DNA from: a virus | Length of the DNA stretch: 64,000 bases | Strand: one strand, 5' to 3' | IMG/VR virus record: IMGVR_UViG_3300032893_000004 | Coordinates: 1-64,000 of that record | In this document: in pieces, positions 5,409 to 57,098 of the stretch | Numbering within the stretch: the first letter of the stretch is position 1 | Layout: every line of letters begins with the position of its first letter | Made by a program: the position numbers and the translations under genes | Notes under the pieces: generated by a model | The model's input: only the letters and a program-made list of their open reading frames with translations | Databases searched by the model: none | What the model was told of the DNA's origin: nothing

Positions 5409-5438
5409 TTGACATTCTAGCGACTCTCGTGCTATATT
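5409..5438 (+). promoter_or_regulatory. Sigma70-like promoter of the PA14 lipoprotein gene
   Basis: TTGACA (5409-5414) and TATATT (5433-5438) with an 18-bp spacer. This is one of the best sigma70-type matches in the window. It gives a leader of about 28 nt before the ATG at 5473, which contains AAAGGGGAG. Having its own host-type promoter suggests the gene can be expressed independently of the upstream operon. Confidence 0.7.
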
Positions 5439-12300: not shown

Positions 12301-14145
12301 TGCCGACGCGTTCGCGGTCGACTGAGCCGACATCGTGAGAGTCGTACCTGATATGCCGATGACGTGAGCGAATCCGGCCGCGAAGTTCGAAGACGTGACG
12401 CGAGAACCCAGAAATACCTGCGACGTGCTGGACACCGCCGTGATCTGATCCGACGACATCGTGAAGTTACCGGTCAACGATACGGGCGCCAGGAACGAGT
12501 GGTTCGGGATCGTCAGAACGCCCGTGCTACCGATGCCGGCCGCGAACGACGTGATTGGCAGGTAAGGATTGTACGGCTGGCGAGTAGACGAGTCGAGCGA
12601 GCAGTTGTTCGTACCGGAAACGGTCGACGTCCCGGAACACGGCTGGACGGTAGCGAAAGTCAGCGATGTCGTGGACGGAGTGGAAGCTATCCTGAACACG
12701 CCGTTCGGCGGCGTACCAGAAGACAGAAGACCAGAGATGTTAACCCACTGACCTGGGTTCAGTCCGTGAGCGGTCGATGTGTTTACGGTAACGATCGACC
12801 ATACGGCCTGCGAGTTCGCGGTTCCGTCGTCGTTCGTAGTGAAGGACCAAGACGAGATGATGTTATTCGGAGTAGGATTGAGCGCCGACACTCTCTGCAG
12901 AGCTGCCCAGGTAGACGTATCGTCCACGAACGACTGAAGCATCCACTGGCTCGGGCTCGGGCGATACAGCCTTCGCTCAAACAGAGGCTCGTTGAATATG
13001 AACCCGTTATTGGACGTGATCGAGTTGATCAGGAGCGTTCCGCCGTTGAAGGCGGTTAGATCTGCGGCTACGCCGGAAGTTTGTCCCACGACGTACTCGT
13101 CGCCGGCCAAAGCAGTCGGATCTGTAGCGGATGACTGGAACGCACCGTACGTGACCGGCCCAGCCTGAAGAACGAGGTTGAACGAGATCTGACCGGCTCC
13201 GGTCATCACGGAACCGATCGAGTCGAGATACAGATCGTAGAGATTCAAGCCGACAGATGTGCCCGGAGTTGGTCCGTTGCCGGACGGTCCGCCTGTCCCG
13301 AAGTTGGAATCCATGTACCAGTAGACCGAGTTCGTGATCTCCTTGAAGCGCGTGTCCATCGCGTCGAGCTTATCTTTCAAAGTCTTGATGCTGAAGTCGC
13401 CGTAGAAGAACGCGTTCGGATCATCGCCGGGCTGAACCGTGAGAGGGTTGTATCCGGCGACGGTGGATATCCACTCGCGTCTGCCGGCAGCACCGGCTTG
13501 GGTATTCGTCAGGCCGCCCCACTGAAAAGAATTGTAGGGATTCGGATCTGCTCCGCCGGTGCCTAAGCGCCAGAAGTCGGTCGTGCACTTGGTTATGTAC
13601 TGGACAGCTCCGGTGTTGGTGGTAGACACGATCCACAGAGGCAGATACGTCGAGAAGCCGGAAGTCGAGATGTGATACTGATACTGAAGAATGTTCCCGA
13701 TCGGAACAGTCCTCTGGAACTCCAGCTGCTGAGAAGGCGACCAGCCGGCCGTCTGATCTGTCGTAGTCGGATCCGTGATGCGGGTGTAGTCCAGACCTAC
13801 GTAGTTGAGAGTGCCTGCCTGAAACGATCCGATCACGTTTGGATTGGACGGATTCAAGATGTCCGGCGGGGTAGTCGTCGGCACGCTGAGGATAGTACCG
13901 GACTGGGTGGCCGAGCTGTGAAGAAGAGTGGAGCCGGCTACGTTGACCTGAAGTTCCGAAGCGTTGATGGCTGCGTTAGGGATAACGATATCGAATCCGT
14001 TGATTAGATACGGCTGATTGACGCCGGTCATCATCCCGCGAAGTAACATATCGAAGTCGTAAGATACCGCAGATTCGATGGACCGCAAGTGCGGAAAATC
14101 TAATCTCATGCCGCTATAGCCTACTAAACGTCTATCAACGGCCAT
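9328..14145 (-). CDS. Large tail fibre/structural protein (1605 aa)
   Basis: Very long, low in cysteine, rich in Thr/Ser/Asn/Gly and beta-strand repeats, as in phage fibres and large tail proteins. It has at least one clear copy of a repeat domain (near residue 455, TSTAHGLNPGQWVNISG) and a diverged one near residue 760. This repeat is also seen in the 750- and 2184-residue proteins, and resembles the E1 FCCH-like beta domains common in phage tails. The C-terminus is hydrophobic-beta and glycine-rich. ATG with GGGAGATATTCC upstream. It follows a GIY-YIG endonuclease, whose CCTAATCT promoter probably also transcribes this gene. Exact role (fibre, tailspike scaffold or baseplate arm) cannot be decided from sequence; no lyase or chaperone domain is evident. 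Confidence 0.75.
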   Translation of the reverse strand: MAVDRRLVGYSGMRLDFPHLRSIESAVSYDFDMLLRGMMTGVNQPYLINGFDIVIPNAAINASELQVNVAGSTLLHSSATQSGTILSVPTTTPPDILNPSNPNVIGSFQAGTLNYVGLDYTRITDPTTTDQTAGWSPSQQLEFQRTVPIGNILQYQYHISTSGFSTYLPLWIVSTTNTGAVQYITKCTTDFWRLGTGGADPNPYNSFQWGGLTNTQAGAAGRREWISTVAGYNPLTVQPGDDPNAFFYGDFSIKTLKDKLDAMDTRFKEITNSVYWYMDSNFGTGGPSGNGPTPGTSVGLNLYDLYLDSIGSVMTGAGQISFNLVLQAGPVTYGAFQSSATDPTALAGDEYVVGQTSGVAADLTAFNGGTLLINSITSNNGFIFNEPLFERRLYRPSPSQWMLQSFVDDTSTWAALQRVSALNPTPNNIISSWSFTTNDDGTANSQAVWSIVTVNTSTAHGLNPGQWVNISGLLSSGTPPNGVFRIASTPSTTSLTFATVQPCSGTSTVSGTNNCSLDSSTRQPYNPYLPITSFAAGIGSTGVLTIPNHSFLAPVSLTGNFTMSSDQITAVSSTSQVFLGSRVTSSNFAAGFAHVIGISGTTLTMSAQSTANASAAVFDVQQEILVQGLQATGFTSQQLDGVHVVQAVSGNQVTISTPGAITSPAVAAGANADMFYYQFTLSITQALPAAYNVDNQQAFGIGNDQVQFVIGPSTLPSVPIASGAYQLDGVVALSTVLNPVRVSTITNDGAGNLTVTTFSPHNLITGGPQSFTIYGNSSLSQYIRSYINVGIVVTGADTFEITGTGIVSVESYTNVGGLDNTFIYFANNPYAGPVQWSSDIVVKSIIGDLSFTIPQTATVQTSDPNVDPAANQFNVNGQTGTAYVQDGEVLYVILERNEPVSGTTIFTTAGGSSIISTASIMTDAEGNALVPGDFIKFVGEADNYWLKIATINATTVTLVTDRGQAPTIIQRPAATGPMLYSKGSYPKVYVKLHDLVDTTADVYWLAVRRDNGGLPKVYFRDLELSPGEVRNVNDGVDNNLLIYTGANTEGAVNPNYSVSQVSGPYQFTQSLTIQAVDNLTQMVTFTTDAGNIMQQGDQISYYNGTTMYYFTIQNVITSRTVIMQQATNVLAASQTVTYYRENQFIEDTDNLTLALRKEDREAGQVNTALMTPVYDESVFVQQINLTGSGLVRSGSYMYQGSQYNPTALAWVLHGTAAVSETIEGVAIVMPGGNPNGPGPNGILAHIVFGAFSDGTGVFQNGAATGFTINNPGNPAFTAPSIYGDSVGGGIEMVLPPNRRTQVTGGGGFVVFGNHSYYKQDANASLSGEELLVIWNDGIREGNVDYTETFGGPKAKIQMIRWAPPNTRIRFRNLAAFGSAVVSKSSDVTLQSAYNAGNSIQIAPGTPVSITSDSVPLGSAALVVNGSIYINGGSSQLGGIYNITGQDQGFVIGSETNKPKSIWSGYHSVKTHTDHAGSAVQKFTTAQVVTGAAGAIITSSPTSPGSQITLNANTAYRIKIDATAYRSDGPLGVASFGLEGTFYLSSGVATAAGQPLSWVNGFDGDGANYAIVFAVSGNQVMAVVYGSVGATVQWVLAIETQAVSTP

Positions 14146-14626
14146 TGGAATATCTCCCGTGAATACGACGAGTCTTCCCGCTTTTCAGCTTAGATTCGTG
14201 ATTGTTTATCAGATGATAATTGGCTAATCCGACTTTTCTCAAAAGCTCTTTATGTTCAGGTCGAGCATGTAATCTTTTCGAGGCTTCCGATATCTTCCGT
14301 TTCGTCTCTTCGGAGTGTTTACCGTGAGAAAATCCGCCGTCCATCAAATTATATCCTTTGGAAGGATCAGTTGTTTCGAAGATGCGAACTGCATTTTTCT
14401 CCACCGCGTCTAATTCTTCGCGGGAATTGCAACGGTCTAGGATTATCTCTTCGAATTCTGACATACCATACTTTCGTAATGCATTGTAAAATGGGCGATT
14501 CAAGATCTTTTTGAAAGCATTCTGCTTGTGATCGCGCCGACGGTGCGACATCGGCTGCGTAGTCTGCCCGATGTACATCTTCATGTTTTGCCTGTTGACG
14601 TAGGCATAAACGATACCGTAATTCAT
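14135..14626 (-). CDS. GIY-YIG homing endonuclease with NUMOD3-like tail (163 aa)
   Basis: N-terminal GIY-YIG nuclease: GIVYAYVNRQ (residues 4-13) and MYIGQT (17-22) form the paired motif, followed by a basic SHRRRDHK helix and the acidic FEEIIL strand. The C-terminal HSEETKRKISEASKRL is a NUMOD3-type DNA-binding motif, as in Seg-like free-standing homing endonucleases. It would cut related phage genomes lacking the gene and so spread itself. The coding sequence is clearly more A/T-rich than the flanking tail genes, which fits recent insertion between the late promoter and the large fibre gene. It overlaps that gene's start by 11 nt. Confidence 0.9.
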   Translation of the reverse strand: MNYGIVYAYVNRQNMKMYIGQTTQPMSHRRRDHKQNAFKKILNRPFYNALRKYGMSEFEEIILDRCNSREELDAVEKNAVRIFETTDPSKGYNLMDGGFSHGKHSEETKRKISEASKRLHARPEHKELLRKVGLANYHLINNHESKLKSGKTRRIHGRYSNGR

Positions 14627-15858: not shown

Positions 15859-16000
15859 GTTTTCCTCCTCTTATTAGTATCATACCATGATTCATGCGAC
15901 GCCTGAGATCGCTTACTCTGCAGCGTTCCCCGGAAGAGTGAATCAGCTTGACCGGTCTCATCCCCATCGCTCGCATGAAGAGATCTACCAGCCACTTCAC
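15785..16000 (-). CDS. Hypothetical basic protein (71 aa)
   Basis: Starts in an ATGA overlap with the stop of the 750-residue tail gene. Short amphipathic N-terminus (KWLVDLFMRAMGMRP), then arginine-rich. The last 24 codons overlap the next gene, which has its own strong ribosome binding site; an overlap this long is unusual here, so the C-terminal part may carry little selection. Confidence 0.5.
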   Translation of the reverse strand: MKWLVDLFMRAMGMRPVKLIHSSGERCRVSDLRRRMNHGMILIRGGKHEKVQRDEADAGASRNSAKTDRRT

Positions 16001-18249
16001 GACGGATCCGGCCCGTAGATGTAGACCACGTCGGACTGCGGCGACGCGTTCGGAAGCGTGGAATCTCCGGCGTTACCCCAACCTTCGTCGTTCGGGTAGA
16101 TTATGATGATCTCGACGTTGACTCCGGCTGCGATGATCGACTCGATGATCTGCTGAGCATAGATCCTGCCGTTCGCGGTGCCGGTCACGAAGAAGCTGTA
16201 GTCCGATCCGTCGAGCGCTGGGGTGTAAGCCTGCGTAGCCGATATCAGAGTCACATCCTCGCCGATCTCGTGGTCGAACTGAAACCGATAAGCCGTATCC
16301 ATGATGAGCGTCGTGATCGTGCCGGCTACGATCGGCGTCGACAGGCCGGTCGTCTCGAACGCTATCTGCGATGTCGTATTGTTGAAGGTGTACACGTTCA
16401 GCGATGGTGTAGAAGTTACGGTCCACGAGCCGTTGAAGTGCAGCGTCCCGGTGATGAATACTTCCTGTCCTACTACAAGACCGTGCGGTCCGTCCGTCGT
16501 GACTGTCGCGGTGTTTCCGTTCTGGGAGATGGTCTCGATGATGACCGCTTCAGCCGAAGTCGAAGACTGAGCGGCTAGGTACGTCACCGGCGATTCCTGG
16601 TTGTCGCCGTTGAGCGAGAACAGCAGCTGTCCTTCCGCGTTCGGGAGCTGGCCCTGCACCTGGAGGGTCGACAGATTCTGGCCTGCTACGATCGCCTGTC
16701 GAAGCGTGACGTACTGAGACGTGAGAGTGTAGTTCGCGGTCGGATCCACCATGTACGCGCCCAGAAACGGGTTAACCGGGTCGTCTTCCAGCAAGATTCC
16801 TACCACCACGCCGACAACTTGAGTACTGAATACCTGACCAAATTGGTTAGGTACTCCGGTGATGCCGTGAGGAGTGGTCGTCTGAACGGTCGTAAACCCT
16901 TGTTCCCTGAAGATATCCTGGATCGTGAACGTGTTCGACCCGACAGTCAGCGTACCGCCCGAGCCGGACACGTCGTACCCGTCCTGAGCGTACCTGATCG
17001 TGAGAGGGTTCACCACTTGGATCTGAGCCGACGGGACAGTAACCGAGCCGAACGATCCGTTCAGCTCCTGCGACGTGTAGAGAAGGTGAGTGTGAGCTGA
17101 CCCGATCAGGCTGCGCTCTACTACCTGAGTAGACGCGGGCATGTATATCTTCAGCACGCCGTCGGCCGGCTCGAAGGCCAGAGCGTATCTCACCTGAGAA
17201 TACGCTGTGTTCTTGTACGGTAGGAAGAACTTCAGATCGGAGTACAACGCCTGCGTCAGCGTGATAGAGTAGTATGTCGGCGGCGAATTGGCTGGAGGAG
17301 TTGTGTTCGGCGGTATCGAAGCTAGCTGGATCGGACCTGCGAACTCAGGCACTTGTATCTCGAAGTATCCAGCCGAGGGGTTCGGAGTCGGCTGGCACGG
17401 CGAGGCTGCTGTGACGGTGAACGTCCCGTAGAAGCCGGCGTCCTGGAACTGCTCGCCGTAGATCATGACTGAGTCGCCGGGCAACACGAACGACAGAAGC
17501 GGCTGCGGACCGCCGTTCCACGAGAACCGGTACGTGTCGCCGAGATTTCGCGTGATCTGCCATACCGTCGTGTTCGAAGGCAGCATGGTCGGGCGTATGG
17601 TCGGGAACTCAAGCTCGTTCTGGATCGTCCCGCCGACTATCTCGACCAGCGAGTACGGCCCGCGAGCGCCACCGAAGATCTGAACGTACTCGTCGCCGGT
17701 GTCGAAGTCGGTGTACACCTGCGCGTACCCGTCGGATCCGAGAGATGCTATGTAGCGAGAGATCACGTCGACGATCTCTTCGGCGGTCGCCGCCGACGGA
17801 TCCAGAAACTCGTCTCCTACCAGTGTCAAGATATTGGTCACACCATTTTCCAGCACGAATCGGAGGTCGTCGCCTGCCTTGAACGAGTACGGCGCAGCTA
17901 CGCCGGAGATGGTGGTAGCTCGGGTTGCCTGGTCGCCGTAGAAGGCTGCAAGCACGGCGTGGATCGCATCCGTGATCAGCTTCTCTTGGACGATCGTGAT
18001 ACCCATCTCGCTGAACGCGAAGTCGGCCATGCCTAAGTCGCCAGGTCTGACGACGCCCTTCGCGGCGAGCAGCTGGTCTAGGTAGACGCCGGAGCTGGTC
18101 GAGATCGTCAGCTGGTCGGTGACGGCTACGGACAGCTGATCCTGCGCTTCGAGCTGGTCAGAGATGGATTCGAAGAATGCCTGCGCGTTCGGCCCGTCTA
18201 CGAAATCAGAGATAAATTGTCGGAATTGTTGATATCTTGAGAGAGCCAC
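15997..18249 (-). CDS. Large tail/baseplate structural protein (750 aa)
   Basis: The N-terminal 60 residues are helical and contain a SDQLEAQDQLSVAVTDQLT segment. The rest is Thr/Ser/Gly-rich beta structure with two HG(L/I)-type repeats, near residue 463 (TTTPHGITG) and near 590 (TTDGPHGLVVGQEVFITG), of the same type as in the 1605- and 2184-residue proteins. This shared module suggests all three belong to the same tail-tip assembly. Start ATG in GTGAACAGTGGCTCTC; no strong ribosome binding site, but the long structured leader upstream (18250-18400) could control access. Role beyond virion structure not determinable. Confidence 0.7.
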   Translation of the reverse strand: MALSRYQQFRQFISDFVDGPNAQAFFESISDQLEAQDQLSVAVTDQLTISTSSGVYLDQLLAAKGVVRPGDLGMADFAFSEMGITIVQEKLITDAIHAVLAAFYGDQATRATTISGVAAPYSFKAGDDLRFVLENGVTNILTLVGDEFLDPSAATAEEIVDVISRYIASLGSDGYAQVYTDFDTGDEYVQIFGGARGPYSLVEIVGGTIQNELEFPTIRPTMLPSNTTVWQITRNLGDTYRFSWNGGPQPLLSFVLPGDSVMIYGEQFQDAGFYGTFTVTAASPCQPTPNPSAGYFEIQVPEFAGPIQLASIPPNTTPPANSPPTYYSITLTQALYSDLKFFLPYKNTAYSQVRYALAFEPADGVLKIYMPASTQVVERSLIGSAHTHLLYTSQELNGSFGSVTVPSAQIQVVNPLTIRYAQDGYDVSGSGGTLTVGSNTFTIQDIFREQGFTTVQTTTPHGITGVPNQFGQVFSTQVVGVVVGILLEDDPVNPFLGAYMVDPTANYTLTSQYVTLRQAIVAGQNLSTLQVQGQLPNAEGQLLFSLNGDNQESPVTYLAAQSSTSAEAVIIETISQNGNTATVTTDGPHGLVVGQEVFITGTLHFNGSWTVTSTPSLNVYTFNNTTSQIAFETTGLSTPIVAGTITTLIMDTAYRFQFDHEIGEDVTLISATQAYTPALDGSDYSFFVTGTANGRIYAQQIIESIIAAGVNVEIIIIYPNDEGWGNAGDSTLPNASPQSDVVYIYGPDPS

Positions 18250-18400
18250 TGTTCACCTATTAGAGGCGAGACCGGCTGGACTACCCAACACCTCCGCTAA
18301 CCCGGTTTCTTGGCGGGCTCTGCCGCGCCTGGATCGATCGGCACCGGACGGGCGGTAGCCTCTCCAGAACGGGCTATTGAGCTACGGTCTCTTTAATTGA
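18250..18400 (-). ncRNA. Structured 5' leader RNA of the 750-residue tail gene (candidate)
   Basis: A transcript starting just after the CCTAATCT element at 18401 would carry about 140 nt before the tail gene ATG. Its ends pair perfectly as GAGACCG (18391-18385 on the minus strand) with CGGTCTC (18274-18268), closing a domain that also holds CCGC/GCGG and GTTGG/CCAGC helices. Such a folded leader could regulate translation or be processed into a separate RNA. I cannot match it to a named riboswitch or ribozyme. Confidence 0.4.
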
Positions 18401-18408
18401 AGATTAGG
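18401..18408 (-). promoter_or_regulatory. CCTAATCT late-type promoter element
   Basis: Minus-strand CCTAATCT placed between two structured RNA domains. It would start a transcript whose first bases form the closing stem of the leader RNA ahead of the 750-residue tail gene. Confidence 0.6.
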
Positions 18409-18410
18409 GT

Positions 18411-18476
18411 CCGACTCCGACCGTGTGAACCCGCTGTGTACAGCGTTTTTAAGATTCAAGCCCCAGTCGGAGTCGG
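18411..18476 (-). ncRNA. Long perfect stem-loop downstream of the tmRNA (candidate)
   Basis: CCGACTCCGAC (18411-18421) and GTCGGAGTCGG (18466-18476) form an 11-bp perfect stem around a 44-nt loop with a nested CGCTG/CAGCG hairpin. On the plus strand the inner hairpin is followed by five Ts, a terminator-like layout for antisense transcription. It lies between the tmRNA and the next late promoter, so it may cap or stabilise the 3' end of the tmRNA transcript. Confidence 0.4.
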
Positions 18477-18618: not shown

Positions 18619-19048
18619 TGGTGGAACTGGCGGGAATCGAACCCGCGTCCATAAGAAGCTCCGATGCCAGTCTACACGCGTAGCCCTGCATATTTATCGT
18701 CTCCGGGCTAAGACTAGGGCGACCGGCTAAGGTCACCTCCACCACCCCGTATTTTTCAACGACTACGGGAAAGAGCCGGACTGCCGTTTTTCGTTCCCAG
18801 TTCGGCGACTGGGTTCCGCCTGATTTATCGTGGTGCGGCTGCGCTTCCACTATCGCATCTGGGTTACAGTCTGCTGCGAGAGACCGCCGATTCTGCCTTC
18901 TGGACTTCCTCGGTCCTTACCGCCGTTTTTAGGCAGCGGCTTGGAATTCGTATTCGTTGTCGAATACTGTTTGGGCTTTTTACGTGGCCAGCCCACCACG
19001 GCGTGCGTAACATCTTCGCTGATCCCATGTCGAAGCCAGATCAGTCCC
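18619..19048 (-). ncRNA. ssrA: Transfer-messenger RNA (tmRNA), phage-encoded, 430 nt
   Basis: The 5' end GGGACTG and the 3' CAGTTCC pair as the tRNA-like acceptor stem, followed by an encoded ACCA. The 3' domain has GGACGCGGGTTCGATTCCC, the tmRNA T-arm signature, and the conserved GGCTACGCGTGTAGA precedes it. After the 5' segment GGCCACGTAAAAAGCC comes the tag frame: GAC AAC GAA TAC GAA TTC CAA GCC GCT GCC TAA (18961-18929), encoding DNEYEFQAAA after the tmRNA-borne alanine. The exact resume codon is inferred by alignment with the E. coli layout and could be off by one codon. tmRNA with SmpB rescues stalled ribosomes and tags the product for proteolysis. The open frames across this region are shadows. 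Transcribed from the CCTAATCT element 7 nt upstream, so expression is probably late. Confidence 0.95.
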
Positions 19049-19055
19049 ATCTAAG

Positions 19056-19085
19056 AGATTAGGCTAGAATGTGAAAGTTGTCAAC
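19056..19085 (-). promoter_or_regulatory. tmRNA promoter: CCTAATCT element with TTGACA -35
   Basis: Minus-strand CCTAATCT (19063-19056) ends 7 nt before the mature tmRNA 5' G, the distance expected for a -10 box. Here alone a perfect TTGACA lies 17 bp upstream of TAATCT, overlapping the end of the neighbouring gene, so host sigma70 might also use this promoter. This site calibrates the other copies of the motif. Confidence 0.75.
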
Positions 19086-19314
19086 CGAGAATATCGTCCA
19101 TCGCGTCGGCAACCTTGGGAAGATCGTCGTAGTAGACCTCCTCGTACACGGCTCCGGAAAGCTTGTCGAGCTTGGCGACCAGATCGCCCTCGGCGATGAC
19201 CTTGACCTTCACACCGTTGACTCCGCCTTTAGTATGAGCGTCCGTGATCCATTTCGGATACTCGGGCGTCTGAATCTCGACTACTAGAGTAACTATTCTA
19301 CCGACGTTGCTCAT
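19081..19314 (-). CDS. Hypothetical phage protein (77 aa)
   Basis: Alpha/beta protein with KGGVNGVKVKVIAEGDLVAKL in the centre and an acidic C-terminal helix. The ATG overlaps the previous stop by 4 nt. Its last codons lie within the tmRNA -35 region. No family recognised. Confidence 0.65.
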   Translation of the reverse strand: MSNVGRIVTLVVEIQTPEYPKWITDAHTKGGVNGVKVKVIAEGDLVAKLDKLSGAVYEEVYYDDLPKVADAMDDILG

Positions 19315-19550
19315 GACCGTTCGCTCGGATATTCTTCTTTGATGGTCTGTAAAACAGACTCAAGCGACAAAACCAGGACCTCGTAGTTGAGATTCCGGGC
19401 GTACTGGAGGGCGTCGTAGATCCTGCCTTGCTGGAGATACTCGATCAACTTCGGATCGTACGGACCGGATCGGACGCAGTAGTCGATTATCGGCTTGCCG
19501 AGTTCTACCCCGCGAGCGACCTTCTCCTTGATGATGCGTGCGTAGCTCAC
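19311..19550 (-). CDS. Hypothetical helical phage protein (79 aa), GTG start
   Basis: GTG start in a GTGA overlap with the MazG-like gene. Fully helical, alternating hydrophobic and charged residues (IKEKVARGVELGKPIIDY, YDALQYARNLNYEVLVL). No motif identified. Confidence 0.6.
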   Translation of the reverse strand: MSYARIIKEKVARGVELGKPIIDYCVRSGPYDPKLIEYLQQGRIYDALQYARNLNYEVLVLSLESVLQTIKEEYPSERS

Positions 19551-19819
19551 TTGCGATCTCGCTCTTCGTTACAGATCTCGATCATGAAGCGGATAGCCAT
19601 GGCGGCTACCTGCTTTGCTTCTTTGCGAAGATCTTCCAGGTTCCGATTCTTCTGTTTCTGGAACACGATGGCTTCTAGTTCGCGAAACTCTTCGGCGATA
19701 ACTCCGTATCCCTCGTGAGCAGAGTTCATAGGAGGCCAGTTCTTCATGGCATTGTCGAGTTCGGATTCCACATCCCGAAGAGCTAGCGTCTTAAGTGTCG
19801 GTAATTTTATAGTACTCAT
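19547..19819 (-). CDS. MazG-like nucleotide pyrophosphohydrolase-type protein (90 aa)
   Basis: The central MNSAHEGYGVIAEEFRELE followed by KEAKQVAAMAIRFM matches the helical pattern of small phage MazG-like or all-alpha NTP pyrophosphohydrolases, in which an EExxE helix and a later acidic helix bind Mg2+. Here the second helix has KEAKQVAAMA with the usual acidic residue partly conserved, so activity is uncertain. Such enzymes hydrolyse (d)NTPs or lower alarmone effects during infection. 4-nt overlaps on both sides put it in a coupled operon. Confidence 0.6.
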   Translation of the reverse strand: MSTIKLPTLKTLALRDVESELDNAMKNWPPMNSAHEGYGVIAEEFRELEAIVFQKQKNRNLEDLRKEAKQVAAMAIRFMIEICNEERDRK

Positions 19820-20088
19820 CGGATATACCTCTCTACTTGTTTGTACCAGCCGAACAGCACAGCTGGTACGGTTACTCGTTCCACATCTAGTTCGAAGTAG
19901 ATGGGCATCATCTCGGCCGTAACTGTGACGTGCTCGGGCGCGAACTTCTGATCCGTTTCTATCTTGACGCGGTAGTAGTTTAGGATCGAGTCGTATTCTC
20001 GGACCACGGCCGGAGTCTTAGCGTACACGTCGTGCTTGTCTCGGAAAGCAGGCGTGGTTAGAAGTCTGGTCCCCACAGCGTACTTCAT
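19816..20088 (-). CDS. Hypothetical phage protein (90 aa)
   Basis: Basic beta-rich protein with a REYDSILNYYRVKIETD segment resembling an SH3-like barrel of five short strands. ATG overlaps the previous stop as ATGA. No family assigned. Confidence 0.6.
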   Translation of the reverse strand: MKYAVGTRLLTTPAFRDKHDVYAKTPAVVREYDSILNYYRVKIETDQKFAPEHVTVTAEMMPIYFELDVERVTVPAVLFGWYKQVERYIR

Positions 20089-20375
20089 TCCATCTCCTTC
20101 AGCGCGTCGTTCGATGATTTGACCAGCGAGTAAAAGGATATCGCAGCGTTTTCACCTACGTCGAAGCTTGTGTGATGAACCCCGTCTTCGTCCACGGCTC
20201 GGATCTGATAGATTCCTTCGTCGATCTTAACCACTTCTGTAACTGTCTTGGTGCCGTACGAATCTCGGCCGAACGCACCGCACAGGTAGCCGTACAGTTC
20301 GGCACCAGGCGAAACCTGCTCTCGGGCGCATGATTCCGTCGAATATTTTGCCTCCCGCTGCATCAGTTTAATCAC
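20085..20375 (-). CDS. Hypothetical phage protein (96 aa), GTG start
   Basis: GTG in a GTGA overlap; an ATG four codons later is an alternative start. Beta-rich middle (VTEVVKIDEGIYQIRAVDEDG) and a helical end. Two or three cysteines without a metal-binding spacing. Unknown function. Confidence 0.6.
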   Translation of the reverse strand: MIKLMQREAKYSTESCAREQVSPGAELYGYLCGAFGRDSYGTKTVTEVVKIDEGIYQIRAVDEDGVHHTSFDVGENAAISFYSLVKSSNDALKEME

Positions 20376-20638
20376 ACTTCAACCACCGGGACATCTACCC
20401 ACTCGGACACAGGATTGCCGCCGTTGCCGGGAACGGTGAAGATCTCGTCCGTCTCTACGACTTCCTGCTGGAGAGTGTCGATCTTATAGGACATGCCGTC
20501 GCCGTCGTAGTCGGTGACAGTCTGTCGCTTGATGCGGAAGTTGTTCGTCTTCGTCTTGATGCGGTTAGGCTTAGCTGCCGGTCCGTTGACGGTCATTGCG
20601 ATATCTCCGTCACCATCTGTGAATATACCCTCGCCCAT
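20372..20638 (-). CDS. Hypothetical acidic protein (88 aa)
   Basis: The frame extends 51 nt further, but AGGAGGATAC places the start at the ATG of MGEGIFTDGDGD. The N-terminus is a DGDGD-type acidic loop that could bind calcium; the remainder is beta-rich (NFRIKRQTVTDYDGDG). It ends VSEWVDVPVVEV. First gene after a 52-bp gap. No family recognised. Confidence 0.6.
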   Translation of the reverse strand: MGEGIFTDGDGDIAMTVNGPAAKPNRIKTKTNNFRIKRQTVTDYDGDGMSYKIDTLQQEVVETDEIFTVPGNGGNPVSEWVDVPVVEV

Positions 20639-20690
20639 GTATCCTCCTGGGAATGTGTGTAAGCTACCATCGAAACGGCAACCCGTCAAG

Positions 20691-21191
20691 CTACTGCGAT
20701 CGCGTCGTACCTTCGACCGAGAAGTGCGTCAGGCCTCTGGCAGATGGATAGACTTTCTCGAACGCGTCGATCGCTTCCTGGTTCGAAGATAGCAGGAATG
20801 TAACTTCTACGTCCATCATGTCCGAGAATACCCGCTTGTACGCCGCGAGACGGTGGTTACCGTCGATCACGACCCAGCAGTGCTTCGTCCAGTCCCACAT
20901 CACCTTGATAGGATCCAGAGGAATGCCTTCGGCGTTGTAGATCGCGATCTTAGCTTCGAGTTCGTCCACCCAACCGGGGTAGTTGATGTCATGCGACGGC
21001 TTGATCAGGCCGAGCTGGAGCCTTCCATTGATGGCGGTCAGCTTGTACTCGGTCGTTATATGGGCGATGTGCATGATGTCACGGCGGTAGGCAACATCCC
21101 AGAAGAATCGGCTGATCGCGTAGTACTTTCGTTTGTGCACTTCCCGACGGGCCGACCGGTACCACCATTGAAAGAACTTGGCGTACCTCAC
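20691..21191 (-). CDS. ParB-like nuclease-fold protein (166 aa)
   Basis: The motif VVIDGNHRLAAYKR (residues 107-120) is the ParB/sulfiredoxin-fold signature (DGNHRLxA), which binds a phosphate or nucleotide in this family. A basic N-terminus (FFQWWYRSARREVHKRKYY) precedes it. Phages carry small stand-alone ParB-like proteins whose activities range from DNA nicking to regulation; there is no HTH domain here, so a partition role is unlikely. GTG start coupled to the previous stop. Confidence 0.75.
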   Translation of the reverse strand: MRYAKFFQWWYRSARREVHKRKYYAISRFFWDVAYRRDIMHIAHITTEYKLTAINGRLQLGLIKPSHDINYPGWVDELEAKIAIYNAEGIPLDPIKVMWDWTKHCWVVIDGNHRLAAYKRVFSDMMDVEVTFLLSSNQEAIDAFEKVYPSARGLTHFSVEGTTRSQ

Positions 21192-21415
21192 TCAGGTCTT
21201 CCTTCGAAAGCTGGCGCAGCGTATATAGTTGCGATCTTGTATCCTCCGACGAATTTAAGCATTTCTTTTCGGCCAGCGTAGAATGTTTCGAGACTTGTTC
21301 GGTCTTTTAGAAAAATTTTCACTTCCATCTGGCTGTGGCCGATATCTTTGAGATGAATCATGCTTATGTGATCCGCATCGATGAACAAGTTGTTCGGTAC
21401 CTCGATTAAACGCAT
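21188..21415 (-). CDS. Hypothetical phage protein (75 aa)
   Basis: Start at the ATG of MRLIEVPNNLFIDADHI, 7 nt after AAGGAG; the frame is open further upstream but without a ribosome binding site. Beta-rich with a C-terminal VGGYKIATIY strand. First gene of this minus-strand unit, facing away from the plus-strand operon at 21660. No CCTAATCT element is present here. Confidence 0.6.
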   Translation of the reverse strand: MRLIEVPNNLFIDADHISMIHLKDIGHSQMEVKIFLKDRTSLETFYAGRKEMLKFVGGYKIATIYAAPAFEGRPE

Positions 21416-21624
21416 TTCTTCTCCTTGTGTGAACTTCTGGACGGTTTTAGGGTTCCGGTGTGTTCGCACATCGTCAGGCCACAACGCCCGCTAGTCGCCT
21501 ACAATCCTCGGTATTTGTGCCTCCCGAGGGTATGTCCGGATTCTGTGTTCCGGTCCGCCCATCAGTTCTAAGATAAGCTACCTGTTCGGTTAGGCCTTGT
21601 CAAGCGTTTCAGAATAGCGCACAT

Positions 21625-46500: not shown

Positions 46501-47153
46501 GCGCCAGCGGTTGTGCTGAAGGAGACAGCTAAGATCGACGCACCTTGAGCGGTCTGGACCGTGGTATTCGAAGGGATGAACCGGTTACCGCCTTGGGCTA
46601 GCACGACAGTTTCGCCGATGTTGTGGAACTTGGTGGTAGGGCTCGTACCAGCTAGGGTGATGGCCCAGTACGCACCGCCCGCAACCGTCGCGACCGACGT
46701 ATATGTGAGCGGACCTTCTACGTTGGTGGTACCTCGGCCCACGTAGATCTGTCCGCCGCCAGATGGGAACAGAGTCGCATCCGGGACGTAGATTACTAGC
46801 GAGCCAGAAACCGGAGCTGGCTGACCGGCGTACACGTTGGTCGAGATCTTAGTGAAAGACTGATCGATGATAGATACTTGACCGTATGACGAAAAAGCCG
46901 AGTATATCGGTACGTTAGCGTCGTTCGCTTGTCGCTGCAGCGCTTCGCCGGTAGCGCGATTGGCGTTCAAGGCGTCGATCATAGTAATGATGTCGGCCGA
47001 ACTCTTGAACAGGCCTTGAGAGATCGCTTCGGTGATCTGCGTGAAGACGCTACCGTCGTTCAAATCAATATCTTTTCTCAAGCGCGAGCGGATCGCGTCG
47101 ATCAGATTACCATTGATCTGCTCTTTTGAAAGCAATACTGGAATATCAGCCAT
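40599..47153 (-). CDS. Giant baseplate J-like protein with inserted beta repeats and CBM-like modules (2184 aa)
   Basis: Residues 1-330 match the baseplate J family: N-terminal helices, then FTNGVDADTDQDIQDRI near residue 269, the xGxDxETDxxLRxR signature. The last ~130 residues (after PILxxxASFAIRI-type strands near 2050) look like the C-terminal part of the same family. In between are about 1,700 extra residues of Thr/Ser/Asn-rich beta structure. That part includes three repeats of the SxHGLxxGDxVxIxG type (near 1200, 1270 and 1345) and two modules resembling carbohydrate-binding family 5/12: YGVGDIVSYLGNNYISTQ near 1380 and ASGARVYYGGSNYTSIQN near 1850, each followed by P-x-T-S-P-x-W/F-W. 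A usual J protein is 300-500 residues. It probably forms baseplate wedges with host-surface-binding arms. Confidence 0.8.
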   Translation of the reverse strand: MADIPVLLSKEQINGNLIDAIRSRLRKDIDLNDGSVFTQITEAISQGLFKSSADIITMIDALNANRATGEALQRQANDANVPIYSAFSSYGQVSIIDQSFTKISTNVYAGQPAPVSGSLVIYVPDATLFPSGGGQIYVGRGTTNVEGPLTYTSVATVAGGAYWAITLAGTSPTTKFHNIGETVVLAQGGNRFIPSNTTVQTAQGASILAVSFSTTAGATIPDGEVQVDGVPVICQTPGTIGNVSIGAISEIVGVAFTATVNNPLAFTNGVDADTDQDIQDRIQAYEIAKSKGTDQAIETAVKGLVALDELKKVSSANVITNADNTASLVFSDGQAYEPNFLGAPFETVVDSAVGGEINLQLRQVPVAQARIENTFTGPYAITAGSFLSCIVEGVQTTHQFLASDFLVPSSATAQEIAASINGDINIGWSASTANNGANVVVYPTNVSLNQIAVVVAPSGVDANVALGFPLNPDVTIRLFKNDLPLYEDGVVASINSREQATWASSIATGNTLIYQVDNTPPVTATFTTAAFQAVQQGAIVSASTSLTIWAAVCNSLMPGVITTVNGNVLTFASARGANTAAAISFIGGTLLSQIFDLEAPLEATGTTSDYTLNKWTGQIGLAVSLQPGDKITAGSQYTRGNDLTSPMPDGPGVAGRAWIITDGAAESVPNGLSPNTSITFSKTGTILTISGLTPSLQPQGFDDVSVGDWLIVWANPTDPAPLQSNQGFWRVLSVTTGVVTVDDGPINRMNLNTSIIPTSTRIVFVKSAAPVQLLSFDINPLTTFLGEVQSQLTGTISDIEGSSVRISTATFDSDGQFYVAAVDMNGSVLGLTVGEAFANTPAFYGFVSETDAEAGIPNFTWSALGTAVSDNIFDQPDFEALGSSTSDFLEILERFTSSPLAIVPETNKTNRSLVTFYDPATTYMTLDVPLYMQTGQAVMNATDRFFMRSSYKFYSDDQSTVIVDGNASTESYALPISRQLIVSSYSTPSNQDFSATDNQSSLALSSVSSFYDFDFSNFKIHRQAQATLTNGTYSILVKSADYGPSGNTIRVGLFYPPNVNQTSISSNFGISDVIDAQIYLPVTTVRTPNWDFTTSFTVSVGAPVGGAQTLTYTWEAGTQPNFGSGIGGASVGVGDVVFLSSTGYFLPQNQGFQAKVVAVTNTSFTVTVPLGAYTSDAISFSNILNQNNVVSVTTPSAHGLVSGQRIGFYGTASPDGGATYPFNTTYVVTVTGTNTFTVPTPNSVPDSLIASASLVSNIVTVTTQTNHGLQVGDVVLISGAGLSYNGLAAISAVTASNQFQYVRSGSAASVAIGRVDFQSYLPTAPVSIAIVTASGTLITVNTSSLHGLNPGDITTVAGISISAYASGTTYGVGDIVSYLGNNYISTQTANTGNTPNTSPTWWTITTLNLSGTFVVNSTPTTSQFTYYYQASIGTNTAGTGGTSTELIPSGSMARAIGGSTNENLQFGVVSTTAQQVVDYISQNIPTLLVAAVNNATPNAPITSSTQDNGLSSNYYTATVTSFQTFLTSRRAKVQLSIAAPAGSTITLSGMSTMGGNNYNGTYVVIDTYLDTGLGYMVSVIQLPALASASTVYTPGGTATGSLPMLMLYDGENEVLSSNLQAPATFPMFTAKNAWTSVPTVGEQLRLVATTNEQLVRFWNELVVTGFSNVGEVELTRYGREIQLSTQTFGGSGSVQITGGTANSLEVALVGSGEEPTTKEGYFSVPSALHKGFVVGQWVNLINNITQNKQLGFSETTTVQLNATTLQITGGTGSFQTKRAVNYTAATQLKIEKHGAFVAVVGVGGPSMDLLTNGVQEGDWVRLYDTQETPWVSTTTYASGARVYYGGSNYTSIQNSNTNNEPDTSPSFWQVQEFNASNTGVFQVVRIFGNDTFWIVNANPVEEIVTLGNVANMSFYSYDSVMPGDVLIVTTNVLGTANIGRYTVVDNTFGVGYSFPTSTAIWLTPTITNPSSPVTLGGEFSLVNVQEANPLSLWKRILAMGPGNGNTTNIIVDSPNLTERITSSLSAQAIATSKLNMNTNINLGIDAYKYYIGLIQLITNTIYGVPYDRINFPGWRASGSPINIVPATLLSIKASFAIRIASGVPFTDIIDVVQSAIAGYVNNLDVGESVSISAMIAAASTIPGVTSVTVTSPTFSSSSDLIAVNANEQAYVINPTTDITITLLT

Positions 47154-56135: not shown

Positions 56136-57098
56136 TTAATTATTCCTCAATAGAAAATCATTAATCTTTTGCAAACAATTGTGCCTGTTCGTTGTCCATT
56201 CTGATTCCCAGATTTCTAAATAAGGAATTCCAAGGTCAGCGAAAAACAGATGTTTGGCAATGTGGTATTCTTCAGGAGTTTGAGCAAAAGGTTTCGCCCT
56301 GAATCCTTTCCCATGCCAATAGTCGCCGTTGAATTCTATTCCGCAGTTTAATTCCGGCACATACACATCAAGCTCAAAACATGTGCCCGATTTGCCCCAC
56401 ACACGTTTGCCAAATTTTCTTTTCACAGCTGTAGGAAATTTTCTTTGAACATACTCGCGAATAAAAACTTCTGGCTTCGATACCCAAGGCTTCATGTGGC
56501 CACAACAATCTTCCAGCCAATCATTCTTGCGAGCAATATGGTAGGCTCTGGCGAAAGAGCTTTGTTGCCAGTCACTAACCGTCTCAAACTGACGTGCAAT
56601 CTGAACAATATCTTTCTTGCTAGCATTTTCCCAAGATCGTTTTGTCTTGGTAAAATGCATTTTCGCTTCTTTCAATACTCCGAATCTGTGCGCAGCCTTG
56701 TACGATCCTCTGTCGGCCGAATACCATTCCTTGAACGTCTTGTATTTTCTAGCGGATATCAAGACAGATTCCGCCGTATACTCTTTATTATGTACTTCCG
56801 GCCGTATCATATGCACGCAAGCATCTTCTAGCCATCCGTGCGTCCAAGCAGCTTTATATGCCGAGTTTGACTTTCTTTGCCATTCTTTACGTGAGGTAAA
56901 CCGCCTTGCATCTTCCAGAACGGTCTCTTTGTCCCACTTTTTTGACCACCTCGGGATCATATGCGCAGCTGCTTCTTTGGTCCAGCCCATCTTATACGCT
57001 GTATCGCACGCAGAGCTGTTGGCACTCCAATCCGACATGCACGAATACTTCTGCGCATCGGCTATAACCAGCTCTTTAGTCCATCTAACGATACTCAC
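56136..57098 (-). CDS. Homing endonuclease with four DNA-recognition-type repeats and EDxHD/Vsr-like nuclease (320 aa)
   Basis: Four ~43-residue repeats, each with the pattern W...A.KY....W......AY..A...GWLxxAxxHM (for example WTKEAAAHM, WLEDACVHM, WLEDCCGHM), fill residues 1-200; they look like tandem helical DNA-binding units. The nuclease follows: CFELDVYVPELNCGIEFNGD then YWHGKGF, the D...E.NGxYWH motif of Vsr-like (EDxHD) homing endonucleases. A/T content is much higher than in the flanking tail genes. It sits between the tail chaperones and the tape measure. GTG start. Confidence 0.8.
   Translation of the reverse strand: MSIVRWTKELVIADAQKYSCMSDWSANSSACDTAYKMGWTKEAAAHMIPRWSKKWDKETVLEDARRFTSRKEWQRKSNSAYKAAWTHGWLEDACVHMIRPEVHNKEYTAESVLISARKYKTFKEWYSADRGSYKAAHRFGVLKEAKMHFTKTKRSWENASKKDIVQIARQFETVSDWQQSSFARAYHIARKNDWLEDCCGHMKPWVSKPEVFIREYVQRKFPTAVKRKFGKRVWGKSGTCFELDVYVPELNCGIEFNGDYWHGKGFRAKPFAQTPEEYHIAKHLFFADLGIPYLEIWESEWTTNRHNCLQKINDFLLRNN

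Follow-up and report, generated by a model that had tools for sequence, protein, structure and literature searches.

This phage genome encodes a functional-looking tmRNA placed directly behind a putative late promoter of the phage itself. We propose that the gene is transcribed late in infection from the sequence CCTAATCT by a phage sigma factor, and that ribosome release is the main role of its product. Taken as a whole, this account is probably correct, although well short of certain. Why lytic phages carry a tmRNA despite the host's own is a standing question, and it would become testable with a tmRNA whose start is dictated by a late promoter belonging to the phage.

The window analyzed here comprises bases 1 to 64,000 of a 155,057-bp virus record (G000; 53% GC). 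Judged from its sequence, the source is an Mx1-like, contractile-tailed phage related to Myxococcus phage Mx1, the closest cultured phage (34% identity for the terminase and 32% for the DnaE-type polymerase). Uncultured relatives were also found, with terminases 55 to 91% identical to that of the window phage. The minus strand carries the head, tail, portal, and terminase genes, and the plus strand carries most replication genes. Homing endonucleases occur among the late genes of the window, specifically a GIY-YIG enzyme with a NUMOD3-like motif (14135-14626, minus strand) and one of HNH type (56136-57098, minus strand). Beyond the window, the record encodes a GroEL-like chaperonin (129254-131248, plus strand), and Mx1 also has an annotated one. 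Terminase matches in genome collections were found in one Saprospiraceae MAG and one Deltaproteobacteria MAG; given that these may be binning errors, we did not assign a host from them. A search of the phage record for tRNA genes found none, leaving the tmRNA as its sole tRNA-like gene.

The tmRNA gene is a single piece of 430 nt on the minus strand (18619-19048), a strand that the initial annotation did not state. That annotation had described a complete tmRNA with tRNA-like ends, an encoded CCA, a tag frame, and a conserved 3' core, and had suggested an Infernal covariance-model search as a check; the description is borne out by both ARAGORN and Rfam. Via cmscan, RF00023 was matched over its full length (model positions 1-374 of 374) with 128.5 bits (gathering score, 47; E 6.8e-50), and ARAGORN called a tmRNA at 18619-19048 with the tag DNEYEFQAAA*. 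The 5' strand of the acceptor stem, GGGACUG (19042-19048, minus), pairs with CAGUUCC, and the pairing retains G3-U70, the alanine identity pair. In the sequence and the Rfam alignment, this 3' strand is followed by a discriminator A and the encoded CCA (18619-18629, minus; CCA at 18621-18619). The T arm, GCGGG-UUCGAUU-CCCGC (18630-18646, minus), is perfect in the Rfam alignment. Membership in the tmRNA family is thus indicated by the full-length covariance match, the alanine-identity tRNA-like domain with CCA, and the stop-ended tag frame with an A at -4. On these sequence features, the tmRNA is real, intact, and ordinary in kind.

Upstream of the gene lies the late-type promoter element CCTAATCT (19056-19063, minus). 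The spacer between it and tmRNA base 1 is exactly 7 nt (19055-19049), as had first been reported. Within the window the element occurs nine times, always on the minus strand, versus 1.19 copies expected, and none of 100 shuffles reached nine. The whole 155-kb record has 17 copies, none of them on the plus strand, and CCTAATCT is the most over-represented 8-mer of the phage's late strand (17 found versus 1.6 expected). Six related genomes with 33 to 54% GC (the window phage plus G001, G002, G004, G006, and G007) together carry 108 copies on the terminase strand versus 6 on the other (p = 2.7e-25). The counts on the plus and minus strands, respectively, are 8 and 0 in G001, 0 and 19 in G002, 3 and 21 in G004, 0 and 17 in G006, and 26 and 3 in G007. 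Many copies lie 10 to 50 nt upstream of late start codons, and others are intragenic.

The aligned sites share a downstream signature. The eighth nucleotide after the element is a purine at 94 of the 108 sites (87%; p = 2.5e-11). An A stands two bases upstream of the element and a T directly after it, with mostly T or A ahead of the purine, and no -35 consensus appears in the alignment. Overall, the pattern resembles that expected of a -10-only promoter and its start site. In the case of the tmRNA, position 19048 is the eighth base after the element; it is also tmRNA base 1 and the predicted start of transcription. Enrichment on the late (structural) strand of the group and the fixed start-site signature make a well-supported case that CCTAATCT is a group-wide late-type promoter element positioned at start-site distance, its timing being predicted.

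The next late-type element in the window (18401-18408, minus) lies upstream of a conserved 750-aa late gene (15997-18249, minus) that follows the tmRNA and has homologues in G004, G006, and G007 (49-50% identity). In G004 and G007, a late-type element also lies just upstream of the homologue. Between element and gene, the window has a GC-rich structured leader (GAGACCG...CGGTCTC; 18250-18400, minus), where G004 and G007 have about 35 nt. A hairpin with a 13-bp stem (z -5.2; 18410-18476, minus) ends just before the element at 18408, and a terminator-like hairpin of the plus strand is nested inside it.

A candidate for recognition of this element is a 363-aa sigma-like protein that is encoded beside the replicative helicase genes, conserved in relatives, and 32% identical to the annotated sigma factor of Mx1. 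Similarity to sigma70 region 2 is found both by PHROG 351 (E 6e-8) and by a profile of seven homologues, which aligns with structurally solved primary sigma factors in the PDB (E 2.5e-8), beginning in region 2 and extending into the early part of region 4; Pfam Sigma70_r2 stays below its cut-off in single sequences. The profile alignment runs out near E. coli residue 564, which we take to lie before the -35-reading region 4.2. A match that ends before region 4.2 agrees with the missing -35 consensus at CCTAATCT sites, and we infer that the phage sigma reads the element.

We envisage that, late in infection, the phage sigma guides the RNA polymerase of the host to the -10-only CCTAATCT, and that the tmRNA is made without a 5' leader from a start at base 1, in which case no RNase P step would be required at the 5' end. 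Host AlaRS would charge the tmRNA and host SmpB would serve as its partner; no SmpB match was found in the phage. The tmRNA could then free ribosomes stalled on truncated mRNAs that accumulate in infection, and this would keep translation going for virion proteins. Tagging for proteolysis would probably be secondary. Lambda-immP22 has been reported to need the ribosome release function of tmRNA, not the tag (PMC2481249).

The upstream region also holds a signal unmentioned in the initial annotation. A perfect TTGACA, the sigma70-type -35 hexamer (19079-19084, minus), lies 17 bp upstream of TAATCT and overlaps the TGA stop codon of the upstream ORF. This is the sole 6/6 match at that distance among about 118 element sites, with a chance of about 6e-4 for a named site. 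The hexamer could also be used by a host sigma70-type polymerase, and the proposal of late promoter control therefore stands in part: the late-type element at start-site distance is genuine and has a parallel in the phage contig G062, whereas late-only control is weakened. The tmRNA might be mainly early or constitutive, made by the host housekeeping holoenzyme at TTGACA-17-TAATCT or by operon read-through, with CCTAATCT a mere -10 hexamer. We regard this as a serious reading, although an unlikely one. As a -10 hexamer, TAATCT matches the consensus at only 3 of 6 positions, and the consensus scan scored the pair below its cut-off; T-12, A-11, and T-7 are retained. A small-ORF operon with a sigma70-like TTGACA-17-TAGCTT at 21603 ends just upstream of the tmRNA (19081-21484, minus), and read-through from it into the tmRNA is possible. 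Good sigma70-like promoters also precede plus-strand small genes of the window at 5409, 22814, and 28239, and probably represent an early class. Their presence elsewhere in the phage makes it quite possible that the tmRNA promoter is a hybrid with early and late use. Moreover, the tmRNAs of two further relatives (G021 and G022) have sigma70-like TTGAC(T/G) promoters 6 nt upstream, and an early promoter precedes the tmRNA of the methylophage Melnitz (PMC9004378).

Several observations argue against a mainly early or constitutive tmRNA. A -10 hexamer needs TAATCT alone, yet the complete CCTAATCT is present, and the late-class start-site signature fits the tmRNA site base for base. The chance of encountering TTGACA is itself raised by its overlap with the TGA stop codon. 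Finally, in G062 (IMGVR_UViG_3300045971_000738; 33% terminase identity), GCTAATCT, which contains the CTAATCT element, stands 6 nt upstream of the tmRNA; the spacing is almost identical, and no good -35 accompanies it. G062 and G066 are more distant Mx1-like contigs that carry tmRNAs, and in G066 CCTAATCT lies 53 nt upstream of the gene. A scan of 2.9 million IMG/VR viral contigs (the window's own record left out) for CTAATCT 3 to 10 nt before a tmRNA 5' end returned G062 only, and a scrambled-motif control in the same scan returned zero matches. We thus retain late transcription by the phage sigma as the preferred account, while allowing that the overlapping TTGACA-17-TAATCT may serve a host sigma70-type holoenzyme at an earlier stage.

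The tag reading frame (18929-18961, minus; ARAGORN coding part 88-120) consists of the resume codon GAC, the tag DNEYEFQAAA, which agrees with the tag first read from the sequence, and the stop UAA. The A at -4 before the resume codon (UAUUC/GAC) corresponds to A86, the frame-setting ruler base of E. coli tmRNA (PMC2481249). Of 103 viral and bacterial tmRNAs compared, only the window tmRNA has GAC as its resume codon, and three tags, one of them that of Mx1, end in AAA. D or V opens the tag in each of the four tmRNAs that ARAGORN called in Mx1-like phages, compared with 7 of the 99 others (Fisher p about 7e-5, with cells that are dependent because three of the four form one clade).

The departure of the tag from the common A/G-N-...-LAA pattern, together with the D/V first residues, favors the idea that the tmRNA of the phage acts as a competitor of the host's own and diverts tagging, so that a different tag gives tagged proteins a different fate. 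The phage also encodes a ClpP-like S14 protease beyond the window (93686-94369 of the record, minus strand), conserved in relatives and with an apparently intact Ser-His-Asp triad, which would suit redirected tagging. We nevertheless consider redirection improbable: the tag still terminates in Ala-Ala, the tags of Mx1-like phages diverge widely among themselves, the clade of three removes the independence of the D/V comparison, and ClpP folds in phages frequently belong to head-maturation proteases. For the last reason, the protease was not adopted as a tag partner. The initial annotation had also argued, from the difference to the E. coli tag, that this tag may favor another protease or avoid host adaptors. 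That argument is not supported: the tag retains N and an aromatic residue at positions contacted by SspB in the tag of E. coli, in addition to its Ala-Ala end. Comparison with the E. coli tag is relevant only with a known host, and the nearest cultured phage infects Myxococcus.

A 7-bp hairpin predicted by folding (GUAUUCG-ACAA-CGAAUAC, -7.2 kcal/mol; 18950-18967, minus) spans the resume codon, with the ruler base paired within it. It is the 13th most stable among the 103 tmRNAs at that place, and a helix there has been proposed as the block in the E. coli A86C mutant (PMC2481249). We rejected the hairpin as proof of tmRNA inactivity, since 12 of the 103 tmRNAs fold more stably at this position.

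The tmRNA was absent from the five large nearest relatives examined (G001, G002, G004, G006, and G007, of which G001 and G002 are probably partial), which implies that it is optional for these phages. This absence, and a hairpin that could hamper tagging, would fit a passenger or decaying host ssrA copy acquired by chance, an origin that seems to us slightly less probable still than redirected tagging, given that every core element is intact, that 355 genomes of two phyla hold no close bacterial homologue, that the nearest tmRNAs in a tree are largely from phages (weakly supported), and that a phage promoter precedes the gene. Genome and viral collections scanned for exact patterns gave no match, and BLAST hits in two sets of genomes from two phyla (58 and 297 genomes) were largely confined to the 3' end; we therefore name no donor.

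We also identified an unannotated tmRNA in Mx1 itself (OR576727.2, 46646-47022), within a tRNA cluster and with the tag VNTNVFGSQMMAAA. The inspected stretch of the OR576727 record carries no annotation of it, and the passages of the Mx1 paper that were examined mention tmRNA only through a program name. The gene overlaps a 41-aa CDS annotated as a Hef-like endonuclease (46919-47044), which is probably spurious. Its upstream region shows no clear promoter of the late-element or the sigma70-like kind.

More broadly, we tentatively suggest, with rather less confidence than in the account of the window tmRNA, that Mx1-like phages share an undescribed -10-only late promoter, CCTAATCT, and a sigma factor without a -35 domain; that this promoter starts a tmRNA at, or within a base of, its mature 5' end in at least two of them; and that ribosome rescue is thereby under late phage control, with Asp or Val resume codons marking phage-made tags. 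For an entire group of uncultured phages, the analysis supplies a promoter sequence together with a candidate sigma factor; it also adds an overlooked tmRNA in Mx1, a cultured phage with a tractable host.

Phage tmRNAs are already known from 402 of 18,146 phages, about 2% (PMC9004378). A literature search, with most subscription journals outside its coverage, identified no report of a late promoter preceding a phage tmRNA. Like bacterial ssrA (RF00023), the window tmRNA has an acceptor stem with G3-U70, the T arm, a tag frame fixed by the A at -4, and an encoded CCA; it differs in being phage-borne, in its length of 430 nt, in its GAC resume codon, in a QAAA end in place of (L/M/I)AA, and in its late-type phage promoter. 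The Mx1 tmRNA shares a resume codon for neither Ala nor Gly and a tag that also ends in AAA, but it lies in a cluster of more than 20 tRNA genes, has no directly upstream late element, and does not encode CCA. The G062 tmRNA shares the Asp first residue (DEPMLRAA) and CTAATCT 6 nt upstream; in contrast, it is without a TTGACA -35, comes from a contig of 66% GC, and groups with those of Mx1 and G066 in a single clade, of which the window tmRNA is not clearly a member. The Melnitz tmRNA is likewise phage-encoded with a proposed role in infection, but is two-piece (permuted) and associated with an early promoter and a glutamine riboswitch (PMC9004378). Compared by element type only, the proposed late promoter would work like that of T4 with gp55, in which a short -10-only element is read by a phage sigma lacking -35 recognition. 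The two systems differ in that the element here is CCTAATCT, not TATAAATA, and in that the sigma of the window phage is only remotely similar to known sigmas.
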